Shown here: piece after piece, positions 50,879 through 64,000 of the stretch
Numbering within the stretch: position 1 is the stretch's first letter
How the letters are laid out: each line of letters starts with the position of its first letter
From: Citricoccus zhacaiensis
GTDB taxonomy: Bacteria; Actinomycetota; Actinomycetes; Actinomycetales; Micrococcaceae
Length of the DNA: 64,000 nucleotides
Assembly (NCBI RefSeq): GCF_014645315.1
Contig: NZ_BMLQ01000001.1
Location: forward strand, 491,665-555,664
Reading direction: 5' to 3'
Made by a program: the position numbers and the translations under genes
Notes under the pieces: model-generated
Databases searched by the model: none
The model's input: the letters and a program-made list of their open reading frames with translations, nothing else
What the model was told of the DNA's origin: nothing

Positions 50879-53539
50879 TCAGAACTGGAGGTCCCGCAGC
50901 TCGGATCGGTCGGCGATGCCCAGCTTGGTGAACACCCGGTACAGGTGTCCTTCCACGGTCCGTTGGGAGACGAAGAGCTTCTCTGCCACGGCGGCGTTGC
51001 TCAGTCCCTGGGCGGCCAGGTCCACGATCTCCTGTTCGCGTGTGGTCAGCTCGCCCAGAGCCAGGGCCCCGGCGATGTATGGGGGGAAGTCGAGGCCGGA
51101 CCGGACCTGCAGATGCTTGAGCCGCCGGAGTGCCTCCCCCCGGCGGCGCAGGTCGCCGGCCCGGTGGTGGAGCAGGATCAGCCGGGACCAGCAGAGGGCG
51201 GCCGGCAGGACCTCCCCGGAGGCAGCCGTCTCCTCAGCGGCCTCAGCCAGTCCACGCGGGTCCCGCGCCAGGGAGGGGTCCAGAGCCCGGGCGATCCCCG
51301 TTGAACGCGGTCCCTGCGTGACCGTGGCGATGCCGTGCAATTCCTCGAGCAGGGCCTCGTCCAGGTCCACGGGGTCCCGCAGCAGGATGAGGCTGAACAG
51401 GATCTCCTGCCGGATGACAGGGTCCTGCTTCAGCCGCGGGTCATCGAGGATCCGGCGCCACAGCGGTGGTCCCTCGTCCGCGGCATCGGGATTGCGGTCC
51501 TCAGCGATGCTGAACAGGGCCAGGGACATCAGCCACCGGCTCTCCGGGCCGCAGGGCGTTCCCGCCGCACGCTCCTCGGCGGTGGGACTGGGCAGGCCCA
51601 CGGTCACGGCGGCCCGCTGCGGTGCCAGCAGGGCCTCGGCGAGCGGGAGCATCTGGACGGGATCGTGATGGCGCAGCTCAACCACGGCGTCCTCCAGCCA
51701 CGCGGAGGCCTGCACCGGCACCCCGTCGCCGGTCTCGACCAGGTGGTGCAGGATCAGGACGGTGCCGGACCGCTCATGCCACTGGCGTGGTTCCAGGCCC
51801 CGCTGGCCCTGCAGGACGGCCCTGGCCCGGTCTGTGTATCCGGCCGCAGTGTAGGCGAGCACCAGGTACACCAGGGCGTCCAGTCCGAACCGGGCTGAGA
51901 AGACCGGGACCGTGGCCGCCAGCTCGAAGGCCCGCTCCGCGGCCGGGATGGCCGCATCCGGCTTTCCGGCCATGGCGAGGGCATCGGCCTGCATGAGCAG
52001 CATGATGGCCCGGGTGAAGTCCGTGGTCTGCGGGTCGTCCACCAGGCGCTGGGCCTGCTCCAGCAGTTCGGGCCGGTGCAGGTGGACGGCGTCATGGACC
52101 AGCATGTCCACCAGCGTGGCCAGTGACGGCGGGGTGGCGGTGTGCTGCGGCAACCGCTCCCTGAGCTCGGTCATCAAAGCCGGCAGGGCAGCCCAGGGGT
52201 TGGCCGCATCCCCGGTCCGCACCCGGTTCAGGGCCATCAGGCTGAGAGCCTCCAACCTGAGGTTCGGATCCGTGGTCCGGACCGTCAGTTCCTCGAGCTC
52301 CGTGCTGGCCGCCCAGGTCCGTCCGCCCACGAGCATGAGCTCGGACACGAGCAGGGCCGCCCGTGGATCCTGTGACTCGGACAGGAGGGGGGCCATGGCG
52401 CGGGCGGTGGGCCAGTCCTGGGCCTGCAGGGCGCGGTAGCCGGCGTCCATGATCTCGCTGAGCGGCACGGGCTGTCCGCATTCCAGCGCCCAGAGGACGC
52501 TGCGGGCGGTCCGGTGCTCTGCTGCATTGCCGCCCGCGGCCTGCCACCTCTTGTACAACTCGTAACTGCGTCCCGGCGGGATGCGGGTCCGCAGCACCTC
52601 GGCATGGATGGCCGCGGCCGGGCCCACCGTGTTCGGGGAATCTCCCTCGCGGAGGAAGCCGGCGTCGAGCAGGTCGTGGACGTGCTCCCCCGCGACCGTC
52701 CGCAGGAGGGACCTCGGCGCCCATCCGGCCAGGGCCACCAGATCGAGGGTCTCGCGTTCGCCCGGCAGCAGGGAATCGTGCATGGCCTCCACCGTGTCGA
52801 TGAGCCGTCCGTCCGGATCCGGTGCCGCCCGCAGCAGCATCCACGGTGCTTGCCTCCCCGGGAGCGCTGCCCCCTTCGGAGTCCGCACGAGAATCCCCTG
52901 GTCATGGGCGGAGGCCAGGTAGGCGTTGATCAGCCGGGGGTTGCCACCGGTCATCCCGTGGATGGTCCGCACGGCGGCCTCGGTCAGGGGCCCGTCAAGC
53001 ACGCCCGTGCACTGCCGCCGGACCTGGTTCAGATCTGCGGGTTCCAGGTGGATGGTGCTCAGCACGCCGGTGTCTGCCAAGGCGGCGATGCCTGATTCGC
53101 GGCTCAGCGATCCGGTCCCGATCGTCAGCAGCGTTGCGGCCCGGTTCTGCACCAGCTGCGCCAGCACGAAGGCACTGGCAGCGTCGAGGTGCTGGACGTC
53201 CACCACCACGATGACGGGGTCCTGCCCGAACTGCTGCAGGGCGCGCAGCACCTCCACGGGCGTGGTGAGCTCTGGCAGCGCGGCGAGCAGCGGTGTCAGG
53301 GCGCCGTACGGCACCTCGCGCAGGTTGGGACTGCATTGGACGGTCTGCACGTCCGCCGTGCGTCCGCTGATCTCCAGTGCGGTCTGGACGAGGGACGACT
53401 TGCCCATGCCGGGCCCGCCGAGGATCACGGCACCGGCGAAGCGGTCGCCCTGCAGGATGTCCACCAGGATCTCGACTTCCCGCGTCCTGCGCGGCAGCGT
53501 CCGCGGAGGGACCCGCCGCCCCGGCGCCGCTGCCGTCAT
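50879..53539 (-). CDS. Large LuxR-family ATPase regulator (LAL type), intact Walker A
   Basis: An 886-residue transcription regulator: N-terminal AAA/STAND-like ATPase (VILGGPGMGKSSLVQTAL, residues ~37-54; Walker B-like VIVVVDVQHLD), a long helical TPR-like middle, and a C-terminal LuxR helix-turn-helix (LTTREQEIVDLAAQGLSNAA through VEGHLYRVFTKLGI, last ~65 residues). Such proteins sense a ligand and ATP and activate nearby operons. It follows the sister regulator with a 4-base overlap and directly precedes the glycan operon, so that operon is its likeliest target. Confidence 0.88.
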   Translation of the reverse strand: MTAAAPGRRVPPRTLPRRTREVEILVDILQGDRFAGAVILGGPGMGKSSLVQTALEISGRTADVQTVQCSPNLREVPYGALTPLLAALPELTTPVEVLRALQQFGQDPVIVVVDVQHLDAASAFVLAQLVQNRAATLLTIGTGSLSRESGIAALADTGVLSTIHLEPADLNQVRRQCTGVLDGPLTEAAVRTIHGMTGGNPRLINAYLASAHDQGILVRTPKGAALPGRQAPWMLLRAAPDPDGRLIDTVEAMHDSLLPGERETLDLVALAGWAPRSLLRTVAGEHVHDLLDAGFLREGDSPNTVGPAAAIHAEVLRTRIPPGRSYELYKRWQAAGGNAAEHRTARSVLWALECGQPVPLSEIMDAGYRALQAQDWPTARAMAPLLSESQDPRAALLVSELMLVGGRTWAASTELEELTVRTTDPNLRLEALSLMALNRVRTGDAANPWAALPALMTELRERLPQHTATPPSLATLVDMLVHDAVHLHRPELLEQAQRLVDDPQTTDFTRAIMLLMQADALAMAGKPDAAIPAAERAFELAATVPVFSARFGLDALVYLVLAYTAAGYTDRARAVLQGQRGLEPRQWHERSGTVLILHHLVETGDGVPVQASAWLEDAVVELRHHDPVQMLPLAEALLAPQRAAVTVGLPSPTAEERAAGTPCGPESRWLMSLALFSIAEDRNPDAADEGPPLWRRILDDPRLKQDPVIRQEILFSLILLRDPVDLDEALLEELHGIATVTQGPRSTGIARALDPSLARDPRGLAEAAEETAASGEVLPAALCWSRLILLHHRAGDLRRRGEALRRLKHLQVRSGLDFPPYIAGALALGELTTREQEIVDLAAQGLSNAAVAEKLFVSQRTVEGHLYRVFTKLGIADRSELRDLQF

Positions 53540-56250
53540 GATGCGTTCCGCTGCGGCGCGTGCGCGGCAGCCAGGCGGGTCAGTTCGGCCCGGCCTTTGA
53601 GCTGGAGCTTGGCGTAGATCTGGTACAGGTGTCCTTCCACCGTCCGGATGGAGATACCGCTGATCCGGGCGATCATGGCATTGCTCTTGCCTGCCACCAC
53701 GAGCCGCGAGATCTCCTTCTCCCGGCGGGTCAGCTCGACCATCCAGTCCGGCTCTCCCTCCGGGTCCTCAGTCTCCGCGCCGCCCCTGCGCCCTGCGGCG
53801 GCCGCGGTCTCAGCCAGCCGCCGCATCTGGGCCTGCGGCAGGTCCTTCAGCAAGGGCGAGCTGATTCGTTCGAGGTGCGCCGCGTACCCCGCCGCCGCCA
53901 GCTGCTCCAGGGACCGGTACAGCAGGTCCTGATCGTCCTCGAGTACCGAGCCGGCCATCAGCAGACTCGACCCGGAGGTCCTCGTCTGGGTGCTGGCAGC
54001 CGTCTCGGCGAGCCGCGGTGCCAGCCAGGTCTCGCCGAACTGGAAGGCGCTGGCCACCGCGTAGAACTCCACGGCGTAGAGCCCGTCCGCGGCGGCGCGG
54101 TCCGCCAGTGCCAGGATCCTCGCTGTCCGCGCCCGGGTGGAGTGGATCTCGCCCGTAGACCAGGCCAGGAACAGTTCGGCCAACCAACCGAGCCGTCCCA
54201 AGGATGAGGCTGCCGCCGCACGAGGATGCCCCTCCGCCCGGGCGTCCAGCAGCCGCGAGGCGTCCACTCCGGACGGGTCGTTCCGGTCCGAGGCGCAGTA
54301 GGCCTGGATCGCCAGCGCCAACTGGAGGTCCTGGGGTCGGCCGGTCACCTCCAGTTGGGCCGCGGCGTGTGAGGCCCCCAGTGCGGCTCGATCACGGAAA
54401 CCGGTCATGGCATCCAGGGCGGCGATGACGAGGTCGGCATACAACACCGCATGGGGGTTTCCATGCCTGCCGGCCAGGATGGCCTCGGCCAGTTCCCGGC
54501 ACCGCTGGGTCTGGTCGCAGGTCAACAGCACGGTCAGCATGGAGTCCGCCACCACTGCCCGGTCGTAGGGGCTGAGCACGTCATTGATGATCCCGAGAGT
54601 CCGGAATGCGGTGAGTTCCCGGTCCAGCGAGACCACCAGGTCGAGGGCACCTGCCTGGTCGTCTGCCATGGCCAGCGCTTCGGCACGCACGGACCTGGCG
54701 CGGAAGTGGACGGCCTCGCCCGTGAAGTACGCCCCGCCGGCGTCGAGCAGCTCCGGACGGTGGTCGGCGGAGATCGTCTCCAAGCGGGACAAGGCCTCAC
54801 GGAGGTCTCCGCGGGCCACGGACAGTGCCGCGGCCTGGACACCGAGCACGGCGGAGGACTGTTCCGGGGATCGGCGGATCACGGCTTCGGCGCCGTCCAG
54901 GTCTCCCACCACGGCCCGTGCCTGTGACTCTGCCCAGGCCAGGTGGATTCTGCCCGTCGCCAAGGAGGCCCGCGGGCGGCTGTCCGAGGCTCGGCCGACT
55001 TCGGAGAAGAGCGAGATGGCACCCTCGGCGTCACCGATGGCCACCAGGTCCTGGGCCGCACGGAGCACGCTGAGGTACCCGGGGTCGAGGGCCTCGAGCG
55101 TGCTGGACAGTTCGCGGTGACGGTCCGGCTCGATGGCTGCCAGGATCTCAGCCGCCTGGACGGAGGTCACCAGGGCCAACCGACCGCTGTGGTCATTCCT
55201 GATCTCGAGCACCCCGTCGTCCTCGAGGTCGTCCAATTCGGCGGCGAAACCCGTGTGGACGAGGTCAGCGACACGCATGGGCCCGCAGATCGCGAGCATC
55301 TCCAGCAGAGCTCGGTGGCGCACCGGCAGGTCACGCAGCACCGCGGTCGATGCCCCTCCGGAGGTGGAGCGGGGCAGCGGTCCCGGGGCGAGGACCCAGC
55401 TGGAGTCGATACGCCGCAGCTTCCCGGAGACCACGCAGTCCCGGGCCAGCTGCCGCAATCGATGGACGGATCCCGAGCTGTGTTGCCACAGCACCGTCGA
55501 GGCGAAGCGGGACACGGTTCCCCCGAGTACCTCTTCGAGCAGACCGTGGCTGGCCGTAGGGGTCAGCGGCCAGACCGTGATCCCGGTCAGGGCCCCCAAG
55601 CGGCGCAGGGCCGCCAGGTCAACGGGGACCTCCGTCGGCCGGTCACAGTGCACGATCAGGGTGATGCGGTTGATCTGGGACAGCTGGGCCAGGACGGTGA
55701 TGGTGTCCGGGTCGATCTGATCCGCCTGGGACACGATCACGATGGCCGGCTGCTCTCCGGGCGAGCGCAGGTACTCGGCCAGCGCCCGGACCATGCCGTG
55801 GATCTGGGCCGGGGGTGCCTCGTTCAATCCCGAGAGCAGGATGGCCAGGGCTCCGTACGGGGTGGTCGCCGCGAAGGGGCTGCCATGGAGCCGGAAGACC
55901 GCCCGGTCCGGGCTGACCCCCGAAAGCGCCGATTCGATGGTCTCGCGGCGATCACCGAGTTCGCCGGTCACGATCGCCCCACCGGCACCGTGGCCGGTCA
56001 GGATCCTGCCGAGGGCCAAGGCCGCCTCGTCCGGGGACTCCATCCAGCGGCCGTCTGCTCCCGGGTCGAGCCAGGAGAGGTCGAGCGGTGCCAGGTCGGG
56101 GATGGCCGCGGCAACGGACGCCGACCGTCCGGTGAGGTTGATTCCCGGGGTGGGGCCGGGACGTCGGGGCTGGTCTTGCTCGTCTGAAGGGGGTTCGGTG
56201 ACGAGCCGTTCGGGCGCGATGGACGGGGACGGGGTTGGAGACGGTTGCAT
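53536..56250 (-). CDS. Large LuxR-family regulator with degenerate Walker A
   Basis: A 904-residue sister of the preceding regulator: ATPase-like region (~90-300), helical middle, and C-terminal LuxR domain (LTRREKEISRLVVAGKSNAM through VEGHLYQIYAKLQL). The P-loop position reads IVTGELGDRRETIESAL, lacking the GK[ST] of a functional Walker A, so nucleotide binding is probably lost. The Walker B region IVIVSQADQID is also changed. It may work as a non-catalytic partner of the downstream protein. ATG 56250 has GGAAGC upstream; ATG 56280 lacks one. Confidence 0.85.
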   Translation of the reverse strand: MQPSPTPSPSIAPERLVTEPPSDEQDQPRRPGPTPGINLTGRSASVAAAIPDLAPLDLSWLDPGADGRWMESPDEAALALGRILTGHGAGGAIVTGELGDRRETIESALSGVSPDRAVFRLHGSPFAATTPYGALAILLSGLNEAPPAQIHGMVRALAEYLRSPGEQPAIVIVSQADQIDPDTITVLAQLSQINRITLIVHCDRPTEVPVDLAALRRLGALTGITVWPLTPTASHGLLEEVLGGTVSRFASTVLWQHSSGSVHRLRQLARDCVVSGKLRRIDSSWVLAPGPLPRSTSGGASTAVLRDLPVRHRALLEMLAICGPMRVADLVHTGFAAELDDLEDDGVLEIRNDHSGRLALVTSVQAAEILAAIEPDRHRELSSTLEALDPGYLSVLRAAQDLVAIGDAEGAISLFSEVGRASDSRPRASLATGRIHLAWAESQARAVVGDLDGAEAVIRRSPEQSSAVLGVQAAALSVARGDLREALSRLETISADHRPELLDAGGAYFTGEAVHFRARSVRAEALAMADDQAGALDLVVSLDRELTAFRTLGIINDVLSPYDRAVVADSMLTVLLTCDQTQRCRELAEAILAGRHGNPHAVLYADLVIAALDAMTGFRDRAALGASHAAAQLEVTGRPQDLQLALAIQAYCASDRNDPSGVDASRLLDARAEGHPRAAAASSLGRLGWLAELFLAWSTGEIHSTRARTARILALADRAAADGLYAVEFYAVASAFQFGETWLAPRLAETAASTQTRTSGSSLLMAGSVLEDDQDLLYRSLEQLAAAGYAAHLERISSPLLKDLPQAQMRRLAETAAAAGRRGGAETEDPEGEPDWMVELTRREKEISRLVVAGKSNAMIARISGISIRTVEGHLYQIYAKLQLKGRAELTRLAAAHAPQRNAS

Positions 56251-56349
56251 GCTGTGAGCTTCCGGTTCAGAACAGTCCATCCGGAGGGGGATCCGGACTG
56301 ACCGCCGGGTGAACGGTGGTCCAGGGGCGGGGATGCCTCTAGCCACCAC

Positions 56350-56529: not shown

Positions 56530-56604
56530 TGGTTCCGCCCATAGGATTCGAACCTATACTGCACAGCTCCAAAGGCTGGCGTGCTGCCGTTACACCAGGG
56601 CGGA
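56530..56604 (-). tRNA. tRNA-Gln (UUG)
   Basis: The minus strand folds as a tRNA: acceptor TCCGCCC (56604-56598) pairs with GGGCGGA, T-arm TATAGGTTCGAATCCTATG, anticodon loop CTTTGGA with anticodon TTG, discriminator A and an encoded CCA (56532-56530). The outermost anticodon-stem pair is C-T, a mismatch; the other four pair. It lies between the LuxR pair and the UGSC operon. Confidence 0.93.
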
Positions 56605-56693: not shown

Positions 56694-56708
56694 TTCCATC
56701 GCTTGGAA
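56694..56708. promoter_or_regulatory. Palindrome TTCCA-N5-TGGAA upstream of the UGSC operon (candidate IclR site)
   Basis: TTCCA (56694-56698), five bases, TGGAA (56704-56708), 79 bases before the UGSC start. The same palindrome occurs at 60586-60600 before the ABC operon; the IclR gene lies between the two operons. Confidence 0.6.
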
Positions 56709-56787
56709 TCCACCCCGCCGAGAGCCTCCACCCCGGTCATAGTGGCCAGACGAGACTGCGGCAGCTGCCGCGAGGATGGAGGAAACC

Positions 56788-57351
56788 ATGACGGCCGGGA
56801 TCCTTGACCCCACCATCAGCAGTACCAGCAGGAGAGACAGGCCCGGCGGCCCGGTCCCCACCACGCAGTCGGTCGCGGCGCCTCAGCTGGGTACCCTTCG
56901 GGGCAGACGCGTGGGCCTGCTGGAGAACACGAAACGCAACGCCGCTGCCCTCCTGGATGCCCTGGGCGCCGTGCTGACGAACACGGACCACGTCGACCTG
57001 GTCCGGATGACGAAGCAGGATTTCGCCATGCCTCTGACCGAGGACGTGGTGGACGGGATCATCCGTGACTGCGATGTGGTGGTGATCGGCGTCGGTGACT
57101 GCGGGTCCTGCAGCGCCGCCGCGGTCGCTGACGGCATCGCATTGGAGCAGCGGGGAGTGCCCGTAGCGGTCCTGTGCACCGAGGCCTTCGAGGTCACCTC
57201 ACGTGCCATGGCCGGACTCAAGGGGCGGCCGGACTTCCCGGTGCTCCTCATGCCGCATCCGATCGCCAATCTGACGGCCCGGGATCTGGCCGAACGCGGC
57301 CAGACGTTGGCGTCCCGGGTGCGCAGCCACTTCCTCGGCCCGGCCGCATGA
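56788..57351 (+). CDS. UGSC-family protein (cysteine form)
   Basis: A 187-residue soluble protein. The core VIGVGDCGSCSAAAVADGIA carries the family motif, here Cys105-Gly-Ser-Cys108; in some relatives the first Cys is selenocysteine, which gave the UGSC name. A further Cys130 lies in VAVLCTEAF. The motif implies thiol redox chemistry, but no reaction is established. The first ~35 residues are polar. ATG 56788 is behind GGAGGAA; ATG 56776 is in frame but lacks proper spacing. The stop overlaps the next gene by four bases, so both are made together and probably form a complex. Confidence 0.82.
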   Translation: MTAGILDPTISSTSRRDRPGGPVPTTQSVAAPQLGTLRGRRVGLLENTKRNAAALLDALGAVLTNTDHVDLVRMTKQDFAMPLTEDVVDGIIRDCDVVVIGVGDCGSCSAAAVADGIALEQRGVPVAVLCTEAFEVTSRAMAGLKGRPDFPVLLMPHPIANLTARDLAERGQTLASRVRSHFLGPAA

Positions 57352-58421
57352 GCCCGGACCTGGAGGAGCAGGCCGCTCAGGCGGGCACCACCGTCTCGGA
57401 GTCCCGGCTGGATCCGACCGCCTCCCGTGCCATGGCCGAGTACCTGTTCGACCGCGGGTGGTCGGACGGCCTGCCCGTGCTGCCGGCCACGCAGGAGGTG
57501 GTCGAGGAGTTCCTGCTCCACACCGACCGGGACCCGGACGAGATCCTGGCCGGACTGCCCCAGCTGGACCGCCACGCCACCGTCCGGGACATCGCCCTGC
57601 ACGCCGCCATGGCCGGGTGCCGTCCGGAGTACCTGCCCGTTGTGCTGACTGCCTGGGAGGCCCTGTCCCATGAACGGGCCGCCCGAGGTGGCGGCTGGCA
57701 GTCCACCAGCGGACCGGCTCCCCTCGTGATCGTCAACGGCCCGATCCGCCACCGGCTGGGTGTCAACTCCACCGGAGGGGTGTTCGGTCCGGGGTTCCGG
57801 GCGAACATGACCATCCCACGTGCCCTGGGCCTGACCGTGCGCAATGGCTTCGGCGTGGTCCCGCAGCAATTGGAACAGGCGACCCAGGGGGTCCCGGGCC
57901 GCTGGTTCCACTGCGTGGGTGAGGATGAGGAATCCAGCCCCTGGGCCCCGCACAGCGCCGAGACCGGGGTGCCGGCCGGGCAGGATGCCGTCAGCGTGGT
58001 CCTGACCCGGACTAGCGAGTTCATCGACAACCGGTCCTTCCACAGCGCCGGGGAGTTCCTGCGGGACGTCGCGGACACCCTGCAGAGGATGGGCCCCTGG
58101 ATCTTCCGCAGCAGTTCGGCCGTCCTCGTCCTGAACCCGGCCCATGCCCAGGCCCTCGACGACGAGGGCCTGTCGAAGCAGGACGTCCGCCGGTGGCTCG
58201 TCGAGCAGGCCGGTCACACCGAGGCAGATCTGGCCGCCGCGGGCAAGGGCCTGAGTGACCGACCCTTCGGGCCCTTCGCCCCGGACCACTTTCACCCGGC
58301 CATCACCGACGCCACCCCGGCCTCCCTGCCGATCCTGGTGGCCGGCTCCCCCAACGCGGCGATCTCCATGGTCGTCCGGGTGTTCAGCACCTGGTCGGGA
58401 CAGTCCTTCCCGGTGCACTGA
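57348..58421 (+). CDS. Uncharacterised partner of the UGSC protein
   Basis: A 357-residue soluble protein, translationally coupled (ATGA) to the UGSC gene. Features: DRGWSDGLPVLPATQEVVEEFL near residue 37, ATVRDIALHAAMAGCRPEYLPVV, a LVIVNGPIRHRLGVNSTGGVFGPG segment with conserved-looking Gly, Asn and His, and TIPRALGLTVRNGF; it contains few Cys (one in AGCRPEY, one in FHCVGED). No transmembrane or signal sequence. I know similar proteins only as neighbours of UGSC genes, with unknown function. The obligate pairing suggests a heteromeric enzyme in which this chain may bind the substrate; this is inference. Confidence 0.75.
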   Translation: MSPDLEEQAAQAGTTVSESRLDPTASRAMAEYLFDRGWSDGLPVLPATQEVVEEFLLHTDRDPDEILAGLPQLDRHATVRDIALHAAMAGCRPEYLPVVLTAWEALSHERAARGGGWQSTSGPAPLVIVNGPIRHRLGVNSTGGVFGPGFRANMTIPRALGLTVRNGFGVVPQQLEQATQGVPGRWFHCVGEDEESSPWAPHSAETGVPAGQDAVSVVLTRTSEFIDNRSFHSAGEFLRDVADTLQRMGPWIFRSSSAVLVLNPAHAQALDDEGLSKQDVRRWLVEQAGHTEADLAAAGKGLSDRPFGPFAPDHFHPAITDATPASLPILVAGSPNAAISMVVRVFSTWSGQSFPVH

Positions 58422-58524
58422 ACCACAGACCCCACGCACCCGCAGATCTCCCATCCCCGTCATCTCGCTCGCAGCCCGTTCACCCCATTCGCCCCACTCA
58501 CCCCGAACCCAGGAGCGCCACACC

Positions 58525-59412
58525 GTGTCCACCACCGCCCCCAGCACCACCAGCAGCACCAGCACCGGCACCCAAGCGGACGTCTGGTCCGCAGCCGTCC
58601 AGGACGAGATCGCCCAGGCGGAGCACACCCCCTGGCTCGCCGGCAAGACCGCCGTCGTCGCCGGCGGCGGCCTGAGCGGGCCCGAGGGTGGCGTGGGTTT
58701 CGCCATGGCCTGGCTCTTCTCTCGGGCCGGCGCCCGCATCGCGGTGCTGGACCGGGACCAGGAGGCGGCACAGCGGACCGTGGACGCCATCCGGGAGGCC
58801 GGCGGCCAGGCCAGCCGCTTCGCCGTGGACCTCACCGATGAGGCGGACGTCTTGGCCACCGTGGACCGGGTGCTGGCCGAGTACGGACCCATCGACGTGG
58901 TGGGCAATTCTGTGGGCGGCGGCGGCATCACCGGCATCTTCGAGACCTCCCTGGAGGACTACCAGCGCGCCTTCGACGTCAATCTGGGCACCGCGCTGCT
59001 GCTGATGCGCGCCGTGCAGCCCCACATGGCCGCCGGCGGGGCCATCATCCACGTGTCCTCCGGGGCGGTGGAGGGCCGTGGCCCCGGGCTGCCCTACACC
59101 CTGGCCAAGACGGCCCTCGAGAAACTGTGCGTCGGCGCGGCCGCCACCCTGGCCCCGCGGGGCATCCGCGTGAACTGCATCCGGGTGGGCATGATCTGGG
59201 GCGCCTTCGCCGCGCGCGGCATGACCCAGGAGCGCCGCGAGCTGAGGGCCCGCAGCGTGGCCCTGGGCACCGAGGGCACCGTCTGGGACATCGCCTCCGC
59301 CGCGCATTTCCTGTGCACCCCCGCCGCCCGGTGGATCACCGGCCAGGTCCTCCCCGTGGACGGTGGCGGGACGGTGGCCCCGAGCGCGGGCCAGGCCGGC
59401 TCCACATCCTGA
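58525..59412 (+). CDS. Short-chain dehydrogenase/reductase
   Basis: A 295-residue classical SDR. The cofactor loop AGGGLSGPEGGVGFAMA (~47-62) is longer than usual, followed by VLDRD (acidic residue favouring NAD), NSVGGGG, catalytic Ser179/180 in HVSSG, Tyr191 and Lys195 (YTLAK). The C-terminus WITGQVLPVDGG is typical. The first ~40 residues are a Ser/Thr-rich extension. GTG 58525 is chosen with AGGAGCG upstream; the frame is open to 58255 inside the preceding gene. It probably oxidises or reduces an intermediate of the pathway and is co-transcribed with the UGSC pair (103-base gap). Confidence 0.88.
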   Translation: MSTTAPSTTSSTSTGTQADVWSAAVQDEIAQAEHTPWLAGKTAVVAGGGLSGPEGGVGFAMAWLFSRAGARIAVLDRDQEAAQRTVDAIREAGGQASRFAVDLTDEADVLATVDRVLAEYGPIDVVGNSVGGGGITGIFETSLEDYQRAFDVNLGTALLLMRAVQPHMAAGGAIIHVSSGAVEGRGPGLPYTLAKTALEKLCVGAAATLAPRGIRVNCIRVGMIWGAFAARGMTQERRELRARSVALGTEGTVWDIASAAHFLCTPAARWITGQVLPVDGGGTVAPSAGQAGSTS

Positions 59413-59427
59413 GCGTCCCTGCCGGTC

Positions 59428-59468
59428 GGCACCGGTCCGCACCGGTTGGCACCGGTCTGCACCGGCCC
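59428..59468. repeat. Short direct repeats after the SDR gene
   Basis: GGCACCGGTCCGCACCGGTT followed at once by GGCACCGGTCTGCACCGGCC: two ~20-base units, each made of two CACCGG cores. They can also fold because CCGG is self-complementary. Confidence 0.7.
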
Positions 59469-59688
59469 GCTCCTGCCTCTCTGAACCTCTCTGGCTTCTG
59501 GCTTTCACCCGGCGGAAACCGGCCGGTAGGCTCTGCGCCGGCCCCTAACCTGGGCCACACCCACCACCGGTGCGCCCCGCGCCTCGCGAGCGCTGCCTCG
59601 CGGTCGCCACTGCGATCTTCCGGCATCCGCCGATCCGTTCCCGTCCACGGCGCACCGCAACCGGGTGGGCACCGGAGGACTGACCGCG

Positions 59689-60549
59689 ATGAATCAGAAG
59701 CAACCCGTCGATATCCAGAGCGTGCGCGACCGGCTCCGCGACACCGCTCCCGGACACCCGAAGCGCACGGCCGCCGCCCGCGTCCTGTCCCTGTTGGACG
59801 CGTTCGCCCACCGGGGTGAACCGCTGACGCTCTCCGAGATCGCCCGCCGCGCCGACCTGAGCCTGACCACCACCCACCGCCTCGCCCACGAGGTGCGGGA
59901 ATGGGGTGGCCTGGACCTGGACGATGAGGGCCGGTACTGCCTCAGCCGCAAGATCCTGGAATTGGCGAGCGCCTCCACGGAGGAGCTGCGAATCCGCGAG
60001 CTGGCCCTGCCGCACCTGGTGGACCTGCATCGCCGGACCGGAATCACCGTCAACCTCTCCGTGCGCGAGGGCGATGACGTCATGTACTTGGAGGCCCTGC
60101 GCGCCCATCCCAATTACACGGGTCAGAATCGCATGGGCGGCCGGCTCCCCCTCCACGTCACGGCCACCGGACTGGTCCTGCTGGCGTTCTCCAGCCGGCA
60201 GGACCAGGAGGAGTATCTGGCCACCCCCCTCAAGCGGTACACCCGGTTCACCAAGACCCGGCCCGACGAGTTGCACGAGACCATGGACAACACCCGGCGC
60301 GAGGGCATCCTCCGGCTGGACGGCGCCGTGGCCGCCGGGGCCGGTTCCATCGCGGCGCCGGTGCCCGATGCCCTGGGTCAGGTCGATGTGGCCGTGGGCG
60401 CCATCTACGCACACCGGAACCCGGAACCCCACGGGTTACCGGACCTGGTCCTCGCCACCGCCCGCCGGATCGCCCGGGCACGCTCCGAGCGTCCCGTCCT
60501 GGACCCCCGCACCATCGCCTTCAACCGGAGCCAGGCCGGCCTGGGCTGA
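59689..60549 (+). CDS. IclR-family transcription regulator
   Basis: A 286-residue regulator with an N-terminal winged helix (RVLSLLDAFAHRGEPLTLSE then IARRADLSLTTTHRLAHEV) and a C-terminal IclR effector domain (YLEALRAHPNYTGQ, LPLHVTATGLVLLAF, REGILRLDGAVAAGAGSIAAP). IclR proteins commonly control catabolic operons next to them in response to a pathway metabolite. ATG 59689 follows GGAGGA; GTG 59665 is in frame. Palindromes of identical type upstream of the UGSC operon and the ABC operon are its probable binding sites. Confidence 0.92.
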   Translation: MNQKQPVDIQSVRDRLRDTAPGHPKRTAAARVLSLLDAFAHRGEPLTLSEIARRADLSLTTTHRLAHEVREWGGLDLDDEGRYCLSRKILELASASTEELRIRELALPHLVDLHRRTGITVNLSVREGDDVMYLEALRAHPNYTGQNRMGGRLPLHVTATGLVLLAFSSRQDQEEYLATPLKRYTRFTKTRPDELHETMDNTRREGILRLDGAVAAGAGSIAAPVPDALGQVDVAVGAIYAHRNPEPHGLPDLVLATARRIARARSERPVLDPRTIAFNRSQAGLG

Positions 60550-60582
60550 CGACGCCGGCCGAGTCGCTCCACTTTCCGGCGC

Positions 60583-60603
60583 GCCTTCCAACGCGTGGAA
60601 GGC
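60583..60603. promoter_or_regulatory. Palindrome GCCTTCCA-N5-TGGAAGGC upstream of the ABC operon (candidate IclR site)
   Basis: A perfect 8-bp inverted repeat with a five-base centre, containing TTCCA-N5-TGGAA (60586-60600) exactly as at 56694-56708. It lies 34 bases after the iclR stop and 155 before the first permease. Confidence 0.65.
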
Positions 60604-60607
60604 CGCC

Positions 60608-60623
60608 TGTGGCCCATATCACA
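60608..60623. promoter_or_regulatory. CRP/GlxR-like site upstream of the ABC operon
   Basis: TGTGG-CCCATA-TCACA matches the CRP/GlxR consensus TGTGA-N6-TCACA in nine of ten fixed positions. It is five bases after the IclR-type palindrome, suggesting carbon-status control of import. Confidence 0.5.
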
Positions 60624-60757
60624 GCCACCGCAGACTGTGGGGAAACCCGGTCCGGACGGTCCCGGTCCACCTCCCCGGCCTCGCCGCCGGGGCAACGGAC
60701 CCCGGTGCACTCGCACCCGCCTCCCAGGCCGGATCCCCCACCGCCGAGGAGGTGCCG

Positions 60758-61780
60758 GTGAAGGCCCGATTGATTCACTACGGCAGATTGTTGTTGTCGT
60801 CCCTCATCCTGTTCATCGCCGTGATCACGGTGCTGTTCTTCCTGCTGGAGTTGGCCCCGGGGGATCCCATCCAGACACTGGTCGGGGACGTTCCCCTCTC
60901 CGAAGCCTTCCGGGCGCAGATCACCGCCGCATATGGCTTGGACAAGCCGGTCTGGGAGCGGTATGTGCTCTACCTCGGCAACGTCTTCACCGGAAACCTC
61001 GGGTTCTCCTTCGGCACGAACAATGAACCGGTGCTGGACCTGATCCTCAGCCGGGCCGGGAACACCCTGGCCCTGGCAGTCCCCGCCTTCCTGATCTCCA
61101 CCATCGGCGGCATCATCCTCGGTTCGATCGCGGCCCGGACCCGCAGGCGGTGGCTGGACGGCGGTATCTCCGGCGGCGCCGTGGCCCTCTTCTCGGTCCC
61201 CAACTTCTGGTTCGGCATGCTGCTGATCATGGTGTTCTCGATCTGGCTGGGATGGTTCCCCACCCAGGGCAAGAGCCCCTACGGGCAGCCGGGCATCGGG
61301 CTCGAGTACCTGGTCCTGCCCGTGATCACCATGGCCACCAGCGAGCTGGCGTACAAGACCCGCATCATGCGCTCGTCCATGATCGAGTCCCTGGGCCAGG
61401 ACTTCGTGGACACGGCCCGCTCCAAGGGTCTCTCCTCCTCCCACGTGCTCTGGCGCCATGCCCTGCCCAACGCCCTGTTGCCCATGGTCACGGTCTCCGG
61501 TTACAGCCTCGGTTACATCCTGGCCGGGTCCGTGCTGGTGGAGCGGGTGTTCGGTTGGCCCGGGATGGGCCTGCTGTTCATCGACGCCATCAACCGCCAG
61601 AACAACATGGTCATCCTGGGCGTGGTGATCGTCCTGACCGTCGTGATCATCCTCGTCAACATCCTCACGGACGTGGTGTACGGGCTGGTCGATCCACGGT
61701 TGCGAGCCCAGTTCTCCCCCCAACGCACCCTGCCGCCCGAGGGCCGGCAGGACCGGCAGAGTGACGAGGTAGCGGCATGA
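60758..61780 (+). CDS. ABC transporter permease, DppB/OppB type
   Basis: A 340-residue inner-membrane permease of the peptide/nickel/opine importer family with six helices. The N-terminus RLIHYGRLLLSSLILFIAVI and the ELAPGDPIQTLVG motif are typical, and the EAA loop (ARSKGLSSSHVLWRHALPNAL) contacts the ATPases. GTG 60758 is preferred with GAGGAGG upstream; the frame is open far upstream but within the iclR gene in another frame. The stop overlaps the second permease by four bases. No substrate-binding protein is encoded upstream. Confidence 0.9.
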   Translation: MKARLIHYGRLLLSSLILFIAVITVLFFLLELAPGDPIQTLVGDVPLSEAFRAQITAAYGLDKPVWERYVLYLGNVFTGNLGFSFGTNNEPVLDLILSRAGNTLALAVPAFLISTIGGIILGSIAARTRRRWLDGGISGGAVALFSVPNFWFGMLLIMVFSIWLGWFPTQGKSPYGQPGIGLEYLVLPVITMATSELAYKTRIMRSSMIESLGQDFVDTARSKGLSSSHVLWRHALPNALLPMVTVSGYSLGYILAGSVLVERVFGWPGMGLLFIDAINRQNNMVILGVVIVLTVVIILVNILTDVVYGLVDPRLRAQFSPQRTLPPEGRQDRQSDEVAA

Positions 61781-62802
61781 CCCAGCAGGAAACCCACATG
61801 GTCCCCCCACCGGAGACCGGCCCGACGGCGAACGCCGTCACGGAGGCGGCCAACCGCCCCGGCCTCGCCGGCGCAGCCGGCACCACGGCGCCCCCCGACG
61901 GTGCCGGTACCCCGCCACCGGCACAGCCGGACACCCCCGCCGGAGCCGCCGGCCGGCGTCGTCCCCCGGGCACCGAACGGTCCCCCTGGCGCGTGTTCCT
62001 GCGCAAGCCCAGCACCATGGTGTTCCTGCCGCTGCTGGGGCTGTTCGTCCTCATCGCGGCCCTCGGTCCGCTCCTGGTGGGCGATCCCTCCGCGACCGGG
62101 AACGCCGAACTGCTCGCGCCCAGCGCCGCCCACCCGCTGGGCACCGACCACCTGGGACGGGACTACCTGGCCCGGGTGGTCAACGGCGGCCAGATATCCC
62201 TCCTGGTGGGCTTCACGGTGGCGGTGCTCTGCATGACCATCGGCCTGGTCGTCGGCGGACTCGCCGGTTACCACGGCGGCTGGATGGACACCCTGATGGT
62301 CAAGCTGGCGGAGTTCTTCCAGGTGCTGCCAGGGATCGTGCTGGCCCTGGTGGCGGCGGCCCTGTTGGGGGCCAACGTCTTCATCATCGTGGCCATCCTC
62401 TCCATCACCATGTGGCCGGCGGTGGCCAGGATCGTGCGGGCCGAGGCCATGCGCATCTCCCAACTGGGCTATGTGGAGTCCGCCCGCGCCGCCGGATTCC
62501 GGTCCGGGCGCATCATCTGGTCCGATGTGCTGCCCAACGCCCTGCCGCCCGTGCTGGTGGCCACGTCCATGACGGTGGGCCGGGCCATCCTCATCGAGTC
62601 GGGCCTGGCCTACCTGGGCATCGGCGACCCGTCCCACCCCTCGTGGGGTGCCCTGCTGAACTCCGCCCAGGCCTATATGCGGGACGGCTGGTGGCTGGCC
62701 GTGGCACCGGGCCTGTGCATCTTCCTGGTGGTGCTCGCCGTCAACATGCTCGGCGACGCCCTCAACGACGCCTACAACCCCACGGTCGGGAGGGTGAAAT
62801 GA
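61777..62802 (+). CDS. ABC transporter permease, DppC/OppC type
   Basis: A 341-residue permease, partner of the DppB-like protein. The first ~70 residues are a long Ala/Pro-rich cytoplasmic extension, longer than in most relatives. Then come the first helix (TMVFLPLLGLFVLIAALGPL), GTDHLGRDYLARVVNGGQIS, typical of OppC proteins, and the EAA loop SARAAGFRSGRIIWSDVLPN. Start ATG 61777 overlaps the previous stop; its stop overlaps the ATPase start. Confidence 0.9.
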   Translation: MTQQETHMVPPPETGPTANAVTEAANRPGLAGAAGTTAPPDGAGTPPPAQPDTPAGAAGRRRPPGTERSPWRVFLRKPSTMVFLPLLGLFVLIAALGPLLVGDPSATGNAELLAPSAAHPLGTDHLGRDYLARVVNGGQISLLVGFTVAVLCMTIGLVVGGLAGYHGGWMDTLMVKLAEFFQVLPGIVLALVAAALLGANVFIIVAILSITMWPAVARIVRAEAMRISQLGYVESARAAGFRSGRIIWSDVLPNALPPVLVATSMTVGRAILIESGLAYLGIGDPSHPSWGALLNSAQAYMRDGWWLAVAPGLCIFLVVLAVNMLGDALNDAYNPTVGRVK

Positions 62803-63716
62803 CCATCGCAGAGAACCAACCGGCCGCGGGCGCCCCGCTGATCGAGCTCACCGGCCTGAACGTGGTGCTGCCGACCGGGGAACGCAGCGAGGTGGAGGCG
62901 GTGAAGTCGGTGGACCTGGTGGTCCACGACGGCGAACGCGTCGGCCTGGTCGGCGAGTCCGGCTCCGGCAAGTCCGTCACCGGCCGGTCCATCGCAGGCC
63001 TGCTGCCCACCTCCCCCCGGGTGCGCGTGAGCGGCTCCATCCGCATCCGTGGCCAGGAGATGGTCGGCGCCCCGGCCCGGACCTGGGATGACGTCCGGCG
63101 CAAGACCGTGGGCATGATCTTCCAGGACCCACTGACGTTCCTGAACCCGACAATGCGGGTGGGGCGGCAGGTGGCCGAGTCGATTCCCGACCGGCGGCCA
63201 GTGCGCTCCGGGGCGGGCGGCGACCGCACGGCGAGGGACCGGGCCGTGTTCCGATTCCTGCGGCAGGCCGGGTTGCCGGACGCCGAGCAGGTCGCCGCGT
63301 CCTTCCCCCACGAGCTCTCCGGCGGCATGCGCCAGCGGGTGCTGATTGCCATCGCCATCGCCAAGGAGCCGTCCCTGGTCCTGGCCGATGAGCCGACCAC
63401 GGCCCTGGACGCCACCGTGCAGCAACACGTGCTGCGCACCCTGGACGAGACCGTGACCGAGCTGGGGACCTCCCTCATGCTCATCTCCCACGATCTCGCG
63501 GTGGTGGCGGGGATGACCGACCGGGTCTACGTCATGTACGCGGGTCGGATCGTGGAGGAAGGTCCCACCGCCCGGGTGCTCGCCGAGCCCCGCCACGAGT
63601 ACACCCAGGCCCTGCTGCGCAGTGTCCGCAGCCTCACCGACCGGGACACCGACCTGTATTCCATTCCCCTGGCCCTGCGCCAGCGGTTCGCGGAGGAGCC
63701 GACCCATGTTGCTTGA
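62799..63716 (+). CDS. ABC transporter ATPase, DppD/OppD type
   Basis: A 305-residue ATP-binding subunit: Walker A VGESGSGKSVTG (near residues 52-63), Q-loop MIFQDPLTFLNP, signature LSGGMRQR, Walker B LVLADEPTTALDA, switch His in LISHDLAV. It pairs with the DppF-like ATPase encoded next. The C-terminal zone lacks the Cys-rich oligopeptide/iron-sulfur motif seen in some OppD proteins and seems short. ATG 62799 has GGGAGGGTG upstream and overlaps the permease stop. Confidence 0.92.
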   Translation: MTIAENQPAAGAPLIELTGLNVVLPTGERSEVEAVKSVDLVVHDGERVGLVGESGSGKSVTGRSIAGLLPTSPRVRVSGSIRIRGQEMVGAPARTWDDVRRKTVGMIFQDPLTFLNPTMRVGRQVAESIPDRRPVRSGAGGDRTARDRAVFRFLRQAGLPDAEQVAASFPHELSGGMRQRVLIAIAIAKEPSLVLADEPTTALDATVQQHVLRTLDETVTELGTSLMLISHDLAVVAGMTDRVYVMYAGRIVEEGPTARVLAEPRHEYTQALLRSVRSLTDRDTDLYSIPLALRQRFAEEPTHVA

Positions 63717-64000
63717 GGCCATCGACGTCTCCAAGACGTTCCGTTCCCGGCGCTCATCGGCGCCGGTCCATGCGGTGCAGAACGCCACCCTGCAGGCCAG
63801 GCCGGGCGAGTTCGTGGCGATCGTGGGTGAGTCCGGCTCCGGCAAGTCCACCCTGGCCCGTCTCCTGCTGGACCTGCTCGATCCCACCGAGGGCTCGATC
63901 CGGCTGGACGGACGCGAGGTCGGCTCCATGGACCGCACCGAGCGCCGGGCGTACCGCCGCAGCGTCCAGGCGGTGCTGCAGGACCCCGCCGGGTCCCTGA
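63706..64000 (+). CDS. ABC transporter ATPase, DppF/OppF type (partial)
   Basis: The first 98 codons of the second ATPase; the gene runs off the window. MLLEAIDVSKTF opens the domain, followed by Walker A VGESGSGKSTLARLLL and the Q-loop region VQAVLQDPAGSL. ATG 63706 lies behind GGAGGAG and overlaps the end of the DppD-like gene by 11 bases. Substrate-binding protein and any further catabolic genes may lie beyond 64000. Confidence 0.9.
   Translation, partial: MLLEAIDVSKTFRSRRSSAPVHAVQNATLQARPGEFVAIVGESGSGKSTLARLLLDLLDPTEGSIRLDGREVGSMDRTERRAYRRSVQAVLQDPAGSL

Follow-up and report, generated by a model that had tools for sequence, protein, structure and literature searches.

A UGSC-family protein and its near-obligate partner in Citricoccus zhacaiensis: a putative relative of the glycine reductase selenocysteine domain in a catabolic setting

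We analyzed a stretch of 64,000 nucleotides of the Citricoccus zhacaiensis genome (hereafter the window; C1:491665-555664 of this genome, labelled G000), in which the gene for a UGSC-family protein overlaps that of an undescribed partner protein. The pair is followed by genes for a short-chain dehydrogenase/reductase (SDR), an IclR-type regulator and a Dpp-type importer. In the following, L-numbers label fetched loci and G-numbers label genomes. The genes of the unit, in window coordinates, are:

56788 to 57351, plus strand: UGSC-family protein, 187 residues, cysteine type with a CGSC motif (PF24696, 189 bits, cut-off 25; NF041046, 137 bits, cut-off 125)
57348 to 58421, plus strand: partner protein, 357 residues, family undescribed (open reading frame and sequence; AlphaFold2 model, pLDDT 92)
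58525 to 59412, plus strand: SDR oxidoreductase, 295 residues, GTG start, long glycine loop (NCBIfam and Pfam scans)
59689 to 60549, plus strand: IclR-type regulator, 286 residues from ATG 59689 (PF01614, 100.8 bits)
60758 (start approximate) to 61780, plus strand: DppB-type permease (open reading frame; similarity cluster shared with permeases of L006 and other loci)
61777 to 62802, plus strand: DppC-type permease, ATGA overlap with DppB (PF00528, 90.5 bits; NCBIfam OppC-type)
62799 to 63716, plus strand: DppD-type ATPase (PF00005, 96.9 bits; NCBIfam)
63706 to 64000, plus strand: 5' part of a DppF-type ATPase (open reading frame; ATPase similarity cluster), whose gene ends at window coordinate 64482 in L004
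64561 to 66162, past the window (L004 8726-10327): binding protein (phmmer matches to peptide/nickel-type binding proteins)

The unit is present as a preliminary description had given it (UGSC, partner, long-loop SDR, IclR and DppBCDF), except for its start, which had been placed at 56694. For the UGSC gene, the most probable start is ATG 56788, which has GGAGG as a Shine-Dalgarno sequence at 56778-56782, and the numbering Cys105/Cys108 of the earlier description agrees with this start. The alternative ATG at 56776 gives a protein of 191 residues, whose numbering is used below. The two genes had also been called translationally fused by overlap; the 4-bp ATGA overlap at 57348 allows translational coupling, but there is no fusion. 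After the overlapping pair, the intergenic gaps are 103 bp (partner to SDR), 276 bp (SDR to IclR) and about 208 bp (IclR to DppB, with the approximate start), and thus the layout alone does not establish one regulon. Promoter and terminator scans gave no informative signal. The best NCBIfam match of the regulator, TIGR02431 (PcaR/PcaU/PobR), scored 121 against a cut-off of 284.75, so that the IclR domains are recognized but this subfamily is not. The binding protein, said to be missing from the window, is indeed encoded outside it: the gene starts 561 bp beyond the window end, and since DppF also ends there, the importer is complete. It comprises two permeases, two ATPases and a binding protein, as in a Dpp/Opp set, with DppB and DppF assigned by similarity cluster only. 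An attempt to name a ligand from the PDB relatives of the binding protein was dropped, because these relatives are too diverse.

The window protein belongs to the UGSC family (PF24696/NF041046), with which it shares the sequence, the motif and the alternation of cysteine and selenocysteine (Sec). The motif Cys109-Gly-Ser-Cys112 is unchanged across 78 aligned sequences. In 101 aligned UGSC proteins, Lys53, Lys80, Asp108, Cys109, Gly110, Cys112, Asp119, Phe138, His161 and Pro162 are invariant, when Sec is counted as Cys. According to the available part of a 2008 survey of Global Ocean Sampling data (PMC2398784), which counted 255 Sec-containing UGSC sequences, the family is among the more abundant selenoprotein families of marine and freshwater metagenomes, and a thioredoxin-like fold was guessed. 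A 2026 review, as far as its text was available, still counts UGSC among largely uncharacterised selenoproteins (PMC13188914). The AlphaFold2 model of the window protein (pLDDT 90) is Rossmann-like, and its CGSC motif starts the helix that follows the third strand. A thioredoxin fold receives no support from this model, and no thioredoxin is among the PDB matches listed (50 of 1769, E<=10); no significant sequence relative of UGSC was found in the PDB.

UGSC and its partner are a genuine, near-obligate pair. In the C. zhacaiensis genome, there are three UGSC genes, and each is followed by a partner gene with a 4-bp overlap. With these three UGSC proteins as queries, the best 80 of 149 loci (the named loci: 79 from Actinomycetota and one from Burkholderiales) were fetched for comparison. 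The partner is present in 79 of the 80: 78 were detected by BLAST, and L033, which is cut by the contig, begins with the partner in frame. The 80th locus, L083, ends within UGSC at the contig end. The partner is adjacent to UGSC in 77 of the 79 loci. A stop/start overlap of 4 bp is seen in 65 (64 and L033), ten have the partner downstream without overlap, and two have it upstream, one of which (L008) has a downstream partner too. In two Nesterenkonia loci (L024 and L039), the partner lies about 6 kb away on the opposite strand. Among 296 genomes of the phylum, UGSC was found in 24 (22 above the cut-off), the partner in 23 and both in 22; the two genomes with UGSC only rest on sub-cut-off matches. 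The co-occurrence across genomes agrees with the earlier grouping of the two proteins. Outside the C. zhacaiensis genome, 30 of 35 UGSC places have an adjacent partner match. The remaining five are G046:C612, G102:C23, G156:C68 and the two sub-cut-off matches; several of these are fragmentary or lie close to the end of a contig. The partner gene comes first in most of these distant relatives and the UGSC gene first in the named loci, so the adjacency survives the swap of gene order. In one genome (G183; L187, G183:C272) with no UGSC match, two divergent frames each carry two tandem partner domains, and the partner may thus be able to act without UGSC.

The partner itself has no Pfam or NCBIfam match, and nothing significant was found among PDB sequences. 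Its Cys91 is invariant in 78 aligned sequences and kept in 106 of 108 in a larger alignment; Ala83, Ala89, Gly90, Gly131, Arg158 and Glu192 are invariant in the 108 partners. The similarities of its fold to class I fumarase (E 1.7e-3) and, more weakly, to cyclic-amide hydrolases (E about 0.02) were counted as no match (TM about 0.2).

Many relatives of the window protein have Sec in place of the first cysteine. One in-frame TGA is present at 25 of the 38 UGSC places listed, and in all 23 inspected it is the first motif position. A tRNA-Sec above the cut-off was found in all 17 genomes with TGA genes. It was also found in four of seven genomes without them (G000, G136, G183 and G294) and in five of 14 control genomes, and the separation was too incomplete for it to serve as a discriminator of Sec and Cys forms. 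Inspection by eye revealed a hairpin at a common position after the TGA in 18 of 22 TGA genes and in none of four Cys genes, a single stray pattern match in L171 being left out. Folding energy as a sign of the Sec insertion element gave no distinction between the two types (mean z -1.2 for Sec and -1.0 for Cys genes). C. zhacaiensis itself scores 78 bits for tRNA-Sec (cut-off 47) at G000:C4:222208-222298, yet all three of its UGSC genes are of the Cys type.

By profile comparison, the UGSC protein appears to be a free-standing protein remotely homologous to the selenocysteine domain of GrdB/PrdB. A set of C-terminal Sec domains (GRDB) came from 15 phylum loci, out of 30, where a Sec-requiring pattern located the frame. 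With hhalign, UGSC matched this domain with probabilities of 71-91% for the Cys-type set, 89-94% for the merged set and 94-95% for the 23 UGSC sequences found by searching the phylum (19 with Sec, 4 with Cys), with P-values, as single comparisons, from 3.7e-5 to 1.9e-8. A probability of 64-90% remains with Sec masked. The controls were negative: the probability never exceeded 1.1% with reversed profiles, and for two sets of unrelated neighbour families (17 and 16) it stayed within 1.6% and 4.5%, respectively. Where Sec was left unmasked, the displayed alignments place the first Cys/Sec of UGSC on the Sec of GRDB. Furthermore, GRDB also has a partner gene, as homologues of a neighbour in L132 (PF09338, 327 bits) are found in 12 of 30 GRDB loci. 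The UGSC partner was ruled out as a GrdE homologue, with a probability of about 1% against the GrdE-like profile (PF09338).

In the accessible passages on glycine reductase (PMC10298544), GrdB-type enzymes cut C-N bonds; protein B binds glycine and expels the amine, and thioredoxin serves to re-reduce the system. The UGSC pair and the GrdB/PrdB (PF07355) and GrdE/PrdA (PF09338) systems have in common the remotely homologous catalytic domain, the Sec/Cys position, the two-gene plan and thioredoxin as the likely reductant. However, UGSC has no N-terminal GrdB region and no PF07355 match, its partner is not GrdE, and it sits in aerobic-type catabolic islands with, in the C. zhacaiensis genome, Cys rather than Sec. 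PF07355 was not matched in this genome by a search whose controls stayed silent and which matched 63 of the 296 phylum genomes; the window protein, being below this profile, is not filed as GrdB. A further parallel is the proposed fluoroacetate reductase FarEB, a GrdB/GrdE-like pair in which Sec would attack carbon with cleavage of the C-F bond, a GrdB-type attack expelling a non-amine group beside a carboxyl. Unlike the UGSC pair, its proteins are described, in the part of the source available, as GrdB/GrdE-like and come from an anaerobe (PMC10838667). A link between UGSC and GrdB was not found in the literature passages on UGSC that were consulted, a search mostly outside subscription journals. 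Separately, many phylum genomes encode proteins whose match to PF07355 is limited to its C-terminal half (about 212-345), some with UxxC (L143-L156); judged by sequence, they would be a second family of stand-alone GrdB-like domains.

Thioredoxin as the electron donor is suggested by the partner. In 13 of 30 phylum-set loci, the partner has, by eye, an N-terminal CxTC domain, and a profile of seven such domains matches thioredoxins in a PDB profile search (E 7.8e-7), from the first Cys of CxTC. Pfam gave no name to this domain in the two thioredoxin-bearing partners scanned. In L183, L184 and L185, UGSC and partner lie in a single frame read through TGA (U-GSC, U-DGC and U-PGC, respectively). 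The thioredoxin domains and the one-frame fusions fit GrdB-like chemistry for UGSC. A fusion of UGSC with a protein called Unknown_1, which may be the partner, was reported in the accessible part of the 2008 survey (PMC2398784). Tails with a Cys pair (CGPDGC, CSDGAC and CEDGAC), resembling redox tails, are seen in some partners without the thioredoxin domain, at the C-termini in L168, L174, L176 and L157 and at the N-terminus in L164. Another one-frame fusion, in L186 (G136:C25) and L107, has an MGTS motif with neither Cys nor Sec, and its UGSC domain is possibly inactive or repurposed.

The same data may be read in other ways. UGSC could be a thiol-disulfide oxidoreductase or peroxidase that guards the cell during catabolism, with the partner as a docking subunit and the carbon substrate untouched. 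Although the CxxC/UxxC motif, the thioredoxin domain on relatives of the partner and the fold guessed in 2008 are in accordance with such a role, the model is Rossmann-like, thioredoxins are lacking among the listed PDB matches mentioned above, and the remote homology points to GrdB; furthermore, two Dpp sets beside three UGSC units would be odd for housekeeping redox. We consider this role unlikely. A non-redox lyase, hydratase or hydrolase, in which the Cys is a nucleophile or metal ligand and the partner supplies most of the active site, seems to us about equally doubtful. The partner is indeed the better conserved of the two (most homologues have a percentage identity with the window protein in the low fifties, compared with the low forties for UGSC), and its weak similarity to fumarase and the hydrolases is of this kind. 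However, these fold matches have a root-mean-square deviation of at least 11 besides their low TM, and the use of Sec and the fusion with thioredoxin suggest redox chemistry.

The genes around the pair also recur. Counts over the 80 named loci are lower bounds, since many loci are cut by contig ends and genes were chosen by a simple rule: SDR, 44; IclR, 43; alcohol dehydrogenase of the NDMA type (NDMA-ADH), 42; Dpp ATPase, 35; zinc-type alcohol dehydrogenase (Zn-ADH), 35; dppB, 33; ACMSD-like amidohydrolase, 30; aldehyde dehydrogenase, 29; and binding protein, 26. The IclR gene is on the opposite strand or absent in many of these loci, and the idea that the one IclR protein controls every gene of the unit gains no support from them. 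Because SDR, IclR and Dpp genes recur with the pair, the preliminary reading of the unit as import, thiol chemistry and a redox step is a fair one for the clade of the named loci. It does not extend to a universal layout, as relatives in the phylum set have varied other neighbours. This variety, and the finding that SDR, IclR and dppB occur in just 41-55% of the 80 loci, would be expected if the pair sat in a generic catabolic island whose SDR, IclR and Dpp genes have nothing to do with its function. However, the order NDMA-ADH, aldehyde dehydrogenase, NDMA-ADH, UGSC, partner, SDR, Zn-ADH, ACMSD-like amidohydrolase, binding protein and dpp recurs, whole or in part, across genera and families (for example, L022, L036, L056, L068, L069 and L078), and we regard such independence as very improbable.

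C. zhacaiensis has two paralogous units. At C3:279614, the order is NDMA-ADH, aldehyde dehydrogenase, NDMA-ADH, UGSC, partner, SDR, Zn-ADH and ACMSD-like amidohydrolase. At C3:292777, a Dpp-type system with two binding-protein genes precedes UGSC and partner, and the genes after them are presumably of the SsuABC type. Thus, two Dpp importer sets adjoin three UGSC units in this genome. The two NDMA-ADHs score 515 and 506 (TIGR03989, cut-off 440) and MftC scores 635 (cut-off 265), and mycofactocin-linked alcohol oxidation is therefore available to this organism (for the mycofactocin link, see PMC3023750).

The window SDR has the glycine loop GGGLSGPEGGVG, and its nearest solved chains are 7-alpha-hydroxysteroid dehydrogenases. 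Among 27 partner-adjacent SDRs, two of them from C. zhacaiensis, 22 have a glycine-loop spacing of at least 7 by a simple pattern (the L036 protein is mis-started), four have no pattern match and one has a shorter loop. About one third of 41 other SDRs in the loci share the long loop, and it was rejected as a mark of partner-adjacent SDRs. The setting of UGSC is different in six Amycolatopsis loci (L043, L048, L050, L051, L063 and L085), where a small protein of about 200 residues (cluster 30; its representative has no Pfam match) is encoded about 1-2 kb upstream of UGSC.

As for the substrate, the organosulfur or organonitrogen compounds suggested in the preliminary description are not favoured, as the recurring neighbours suggest alcohols, aldehydes and methoxy-aromatics. 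An organosulfur substrate was considered and set aside: genes that we take to be of the SsuABC type flank one paralogue (L006), and that binding-protein cluster occurs in only six of the 80 loci. In the Cys-type clade, the gene association suggests that the substrate is probably a lignin-type (methoxy-)aromatic. The vanillate demethylase LigM scores above the cut-off in 38 of 46 Cys-type UGSC genomes and in nine of the 296 phylum genomes (Fisher test, 38/46 versus 11/216: 6e-28, ignoring phylogeny and habitat). Within the order, LigM is present in 13 of 218 genomes, including the only two with UGSC (p 0.003). LigM/DesA-type genes are present in six of the 80 named loci and in four of the eight nearest to the window unit (L007-L014). 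L008 has, within 10 kb, a DesA syringate demethylase (854, cut-off 800), a LigK aldolase (309, cut-off 304.5) and a LigB-type dioxygenase (PF02900, 203 bits). Likewise within 10 kb, L009 has LigM (866, cut-off 580) together with a formyl-transferase and a protein weakly matching MTHFR (35, cut-off 24), and L011 and L012 have genes in the LigM cluster of L009. In C. zhacaiensis, sub-cut-off LigM-like genes at G000:C3:41142-42503 and C3:355164-356501 span one or two in-frame stops and are possible pseudogenes or frame ends.

With moderate confidence, we propose that UGSC and its partner are the two subunits of an enzyme for thiol-driven reductive cleavage, comparable to protein B of glycine reductase, and that this enzyme would feed aerobic catabolism, probably of lignin-type aromatics. 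The pairing, the remote homology, the thioredoxin fusions and the gene association are computational results. Beyond them, we infer which reaction takes place, what each Cys does, how the steps follow one another and which substrate is used. The Dpp system would import the substrate, and the SDR would plausibly produce an activating ketone. The attack would come from the leading Cys of the CGSC motif, replaced by Sec in many relatives; its target would be the carbon beside an electron-withdrawing group, usually a carbonyl, and a leaving group would be expelled. The second Cys would resolve either the thioether or the oxidised pair that results, and the dithiol would be restored by thioredoxin, which is fused to the partner in some relatives. 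Later steps, suggested by the paralogous and related units, would degrade the product through a nicotinoprotein alcohol dehydrogenase, aldehyde dehydrogenase, CoA transferase and the ACMSD-like amidohydrolase.

Several observations weigh against this proposal. When Sec was masked, the alignment of the Cys-type set with GRDB shifted by three columns, and the exact Cys-on-Sec register thus leans on the Sec column; the GRDB frames, moreover, had been chosen by a pattern requiring Sec. A Pfam scan of the window protein finds the UGSC family only, and not PF07355. Since the partner is not GrdE by profile, it does not explain the activation of the substrate, and the three partners of C. zhacaiensis are without the thioredoxin domain. 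The association of UGSC with LigM is uncorrected for phylogeny or habitat. It is also confined to the clade of the named loci, for the phylum set contains 23 further UGSC genomes, 17 of which have TGA genes, and LigM is absent from them all at E 1e-100. The C. zhacaiensis genome itself has nine matches to the LigM profile, but the contig of the window carries none of them, and the one closest to a UGSC gene lies 12 kb from another paralogue.

A bolder version, which we think improbable, is that the pair acts as a reductive aryl etherase which is driven by thioredoxin, needs no glutathione and derives from the glycine-reductase domain. By analogy, the SDR would oxidise the alpha-carbon of an imported lignin dimer to the ketone, and the Cys of UGSC (Sec in relatives) would attack the beta-carbon, expel the phenol and then be re-reduced. 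The Sphingobium beta-aryl ether route, as given in the available part of PMC8861056, consists of alpha-carbon oxidation, glutathione etherases and thioether reduction. The likeness is in logic only: ketone formation, thiol attack on the next carbon and thioether reduction. In contrast to the glutathione-dependent Sphingobium etherases, UGSC and partner match no glutathione S-transferase profile in a Pfam scan, and their chemistry is our deduction. In the accessible text of a study of Rhodococcus on lignin compounds (PMC9618137), there was no growth on guaiacylglycerol-beta-guaiacyl ether. We found no literature, in a search mostly outside subscription journals, joining selenoprotein- or thioredoxin-dependent reductive cleavage with a lignin etherase. 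If the etherase reading is true, organisms lacking glutathione would own a counterpart of the Sphingobium route, and if a lignin ether is the substrate, Actinomycetota would gain a glutathione-free route to lignin dimers.

The unit belongs to a known orphan family, for which no function was given before; a near-obligate partner, a relation to GrdB and a catabolic setting are added here. The relation to GrdB, the electron donor and the substrate class are the new, testable proposals, and the GrdB link, the thioredoxin fusions and the two paralogous units go beyond the preliminary description. Together with methoxy-aromatic catabolism, the GrdB domain, the partner and the thioredoxin fusions make the orphan UGSC family experimentally tractable.

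Divergent from the UGSC unit, two large adjacent open reading frames of 886 and 937 residues, with a 4-base overlap, occupy 50879-56349 on the minus strand. By the look of the sequence only, their C-terminal ends are LuxR-like. A tRNA-Gln gene (56530-56604, minus strand) adjoins this pair.

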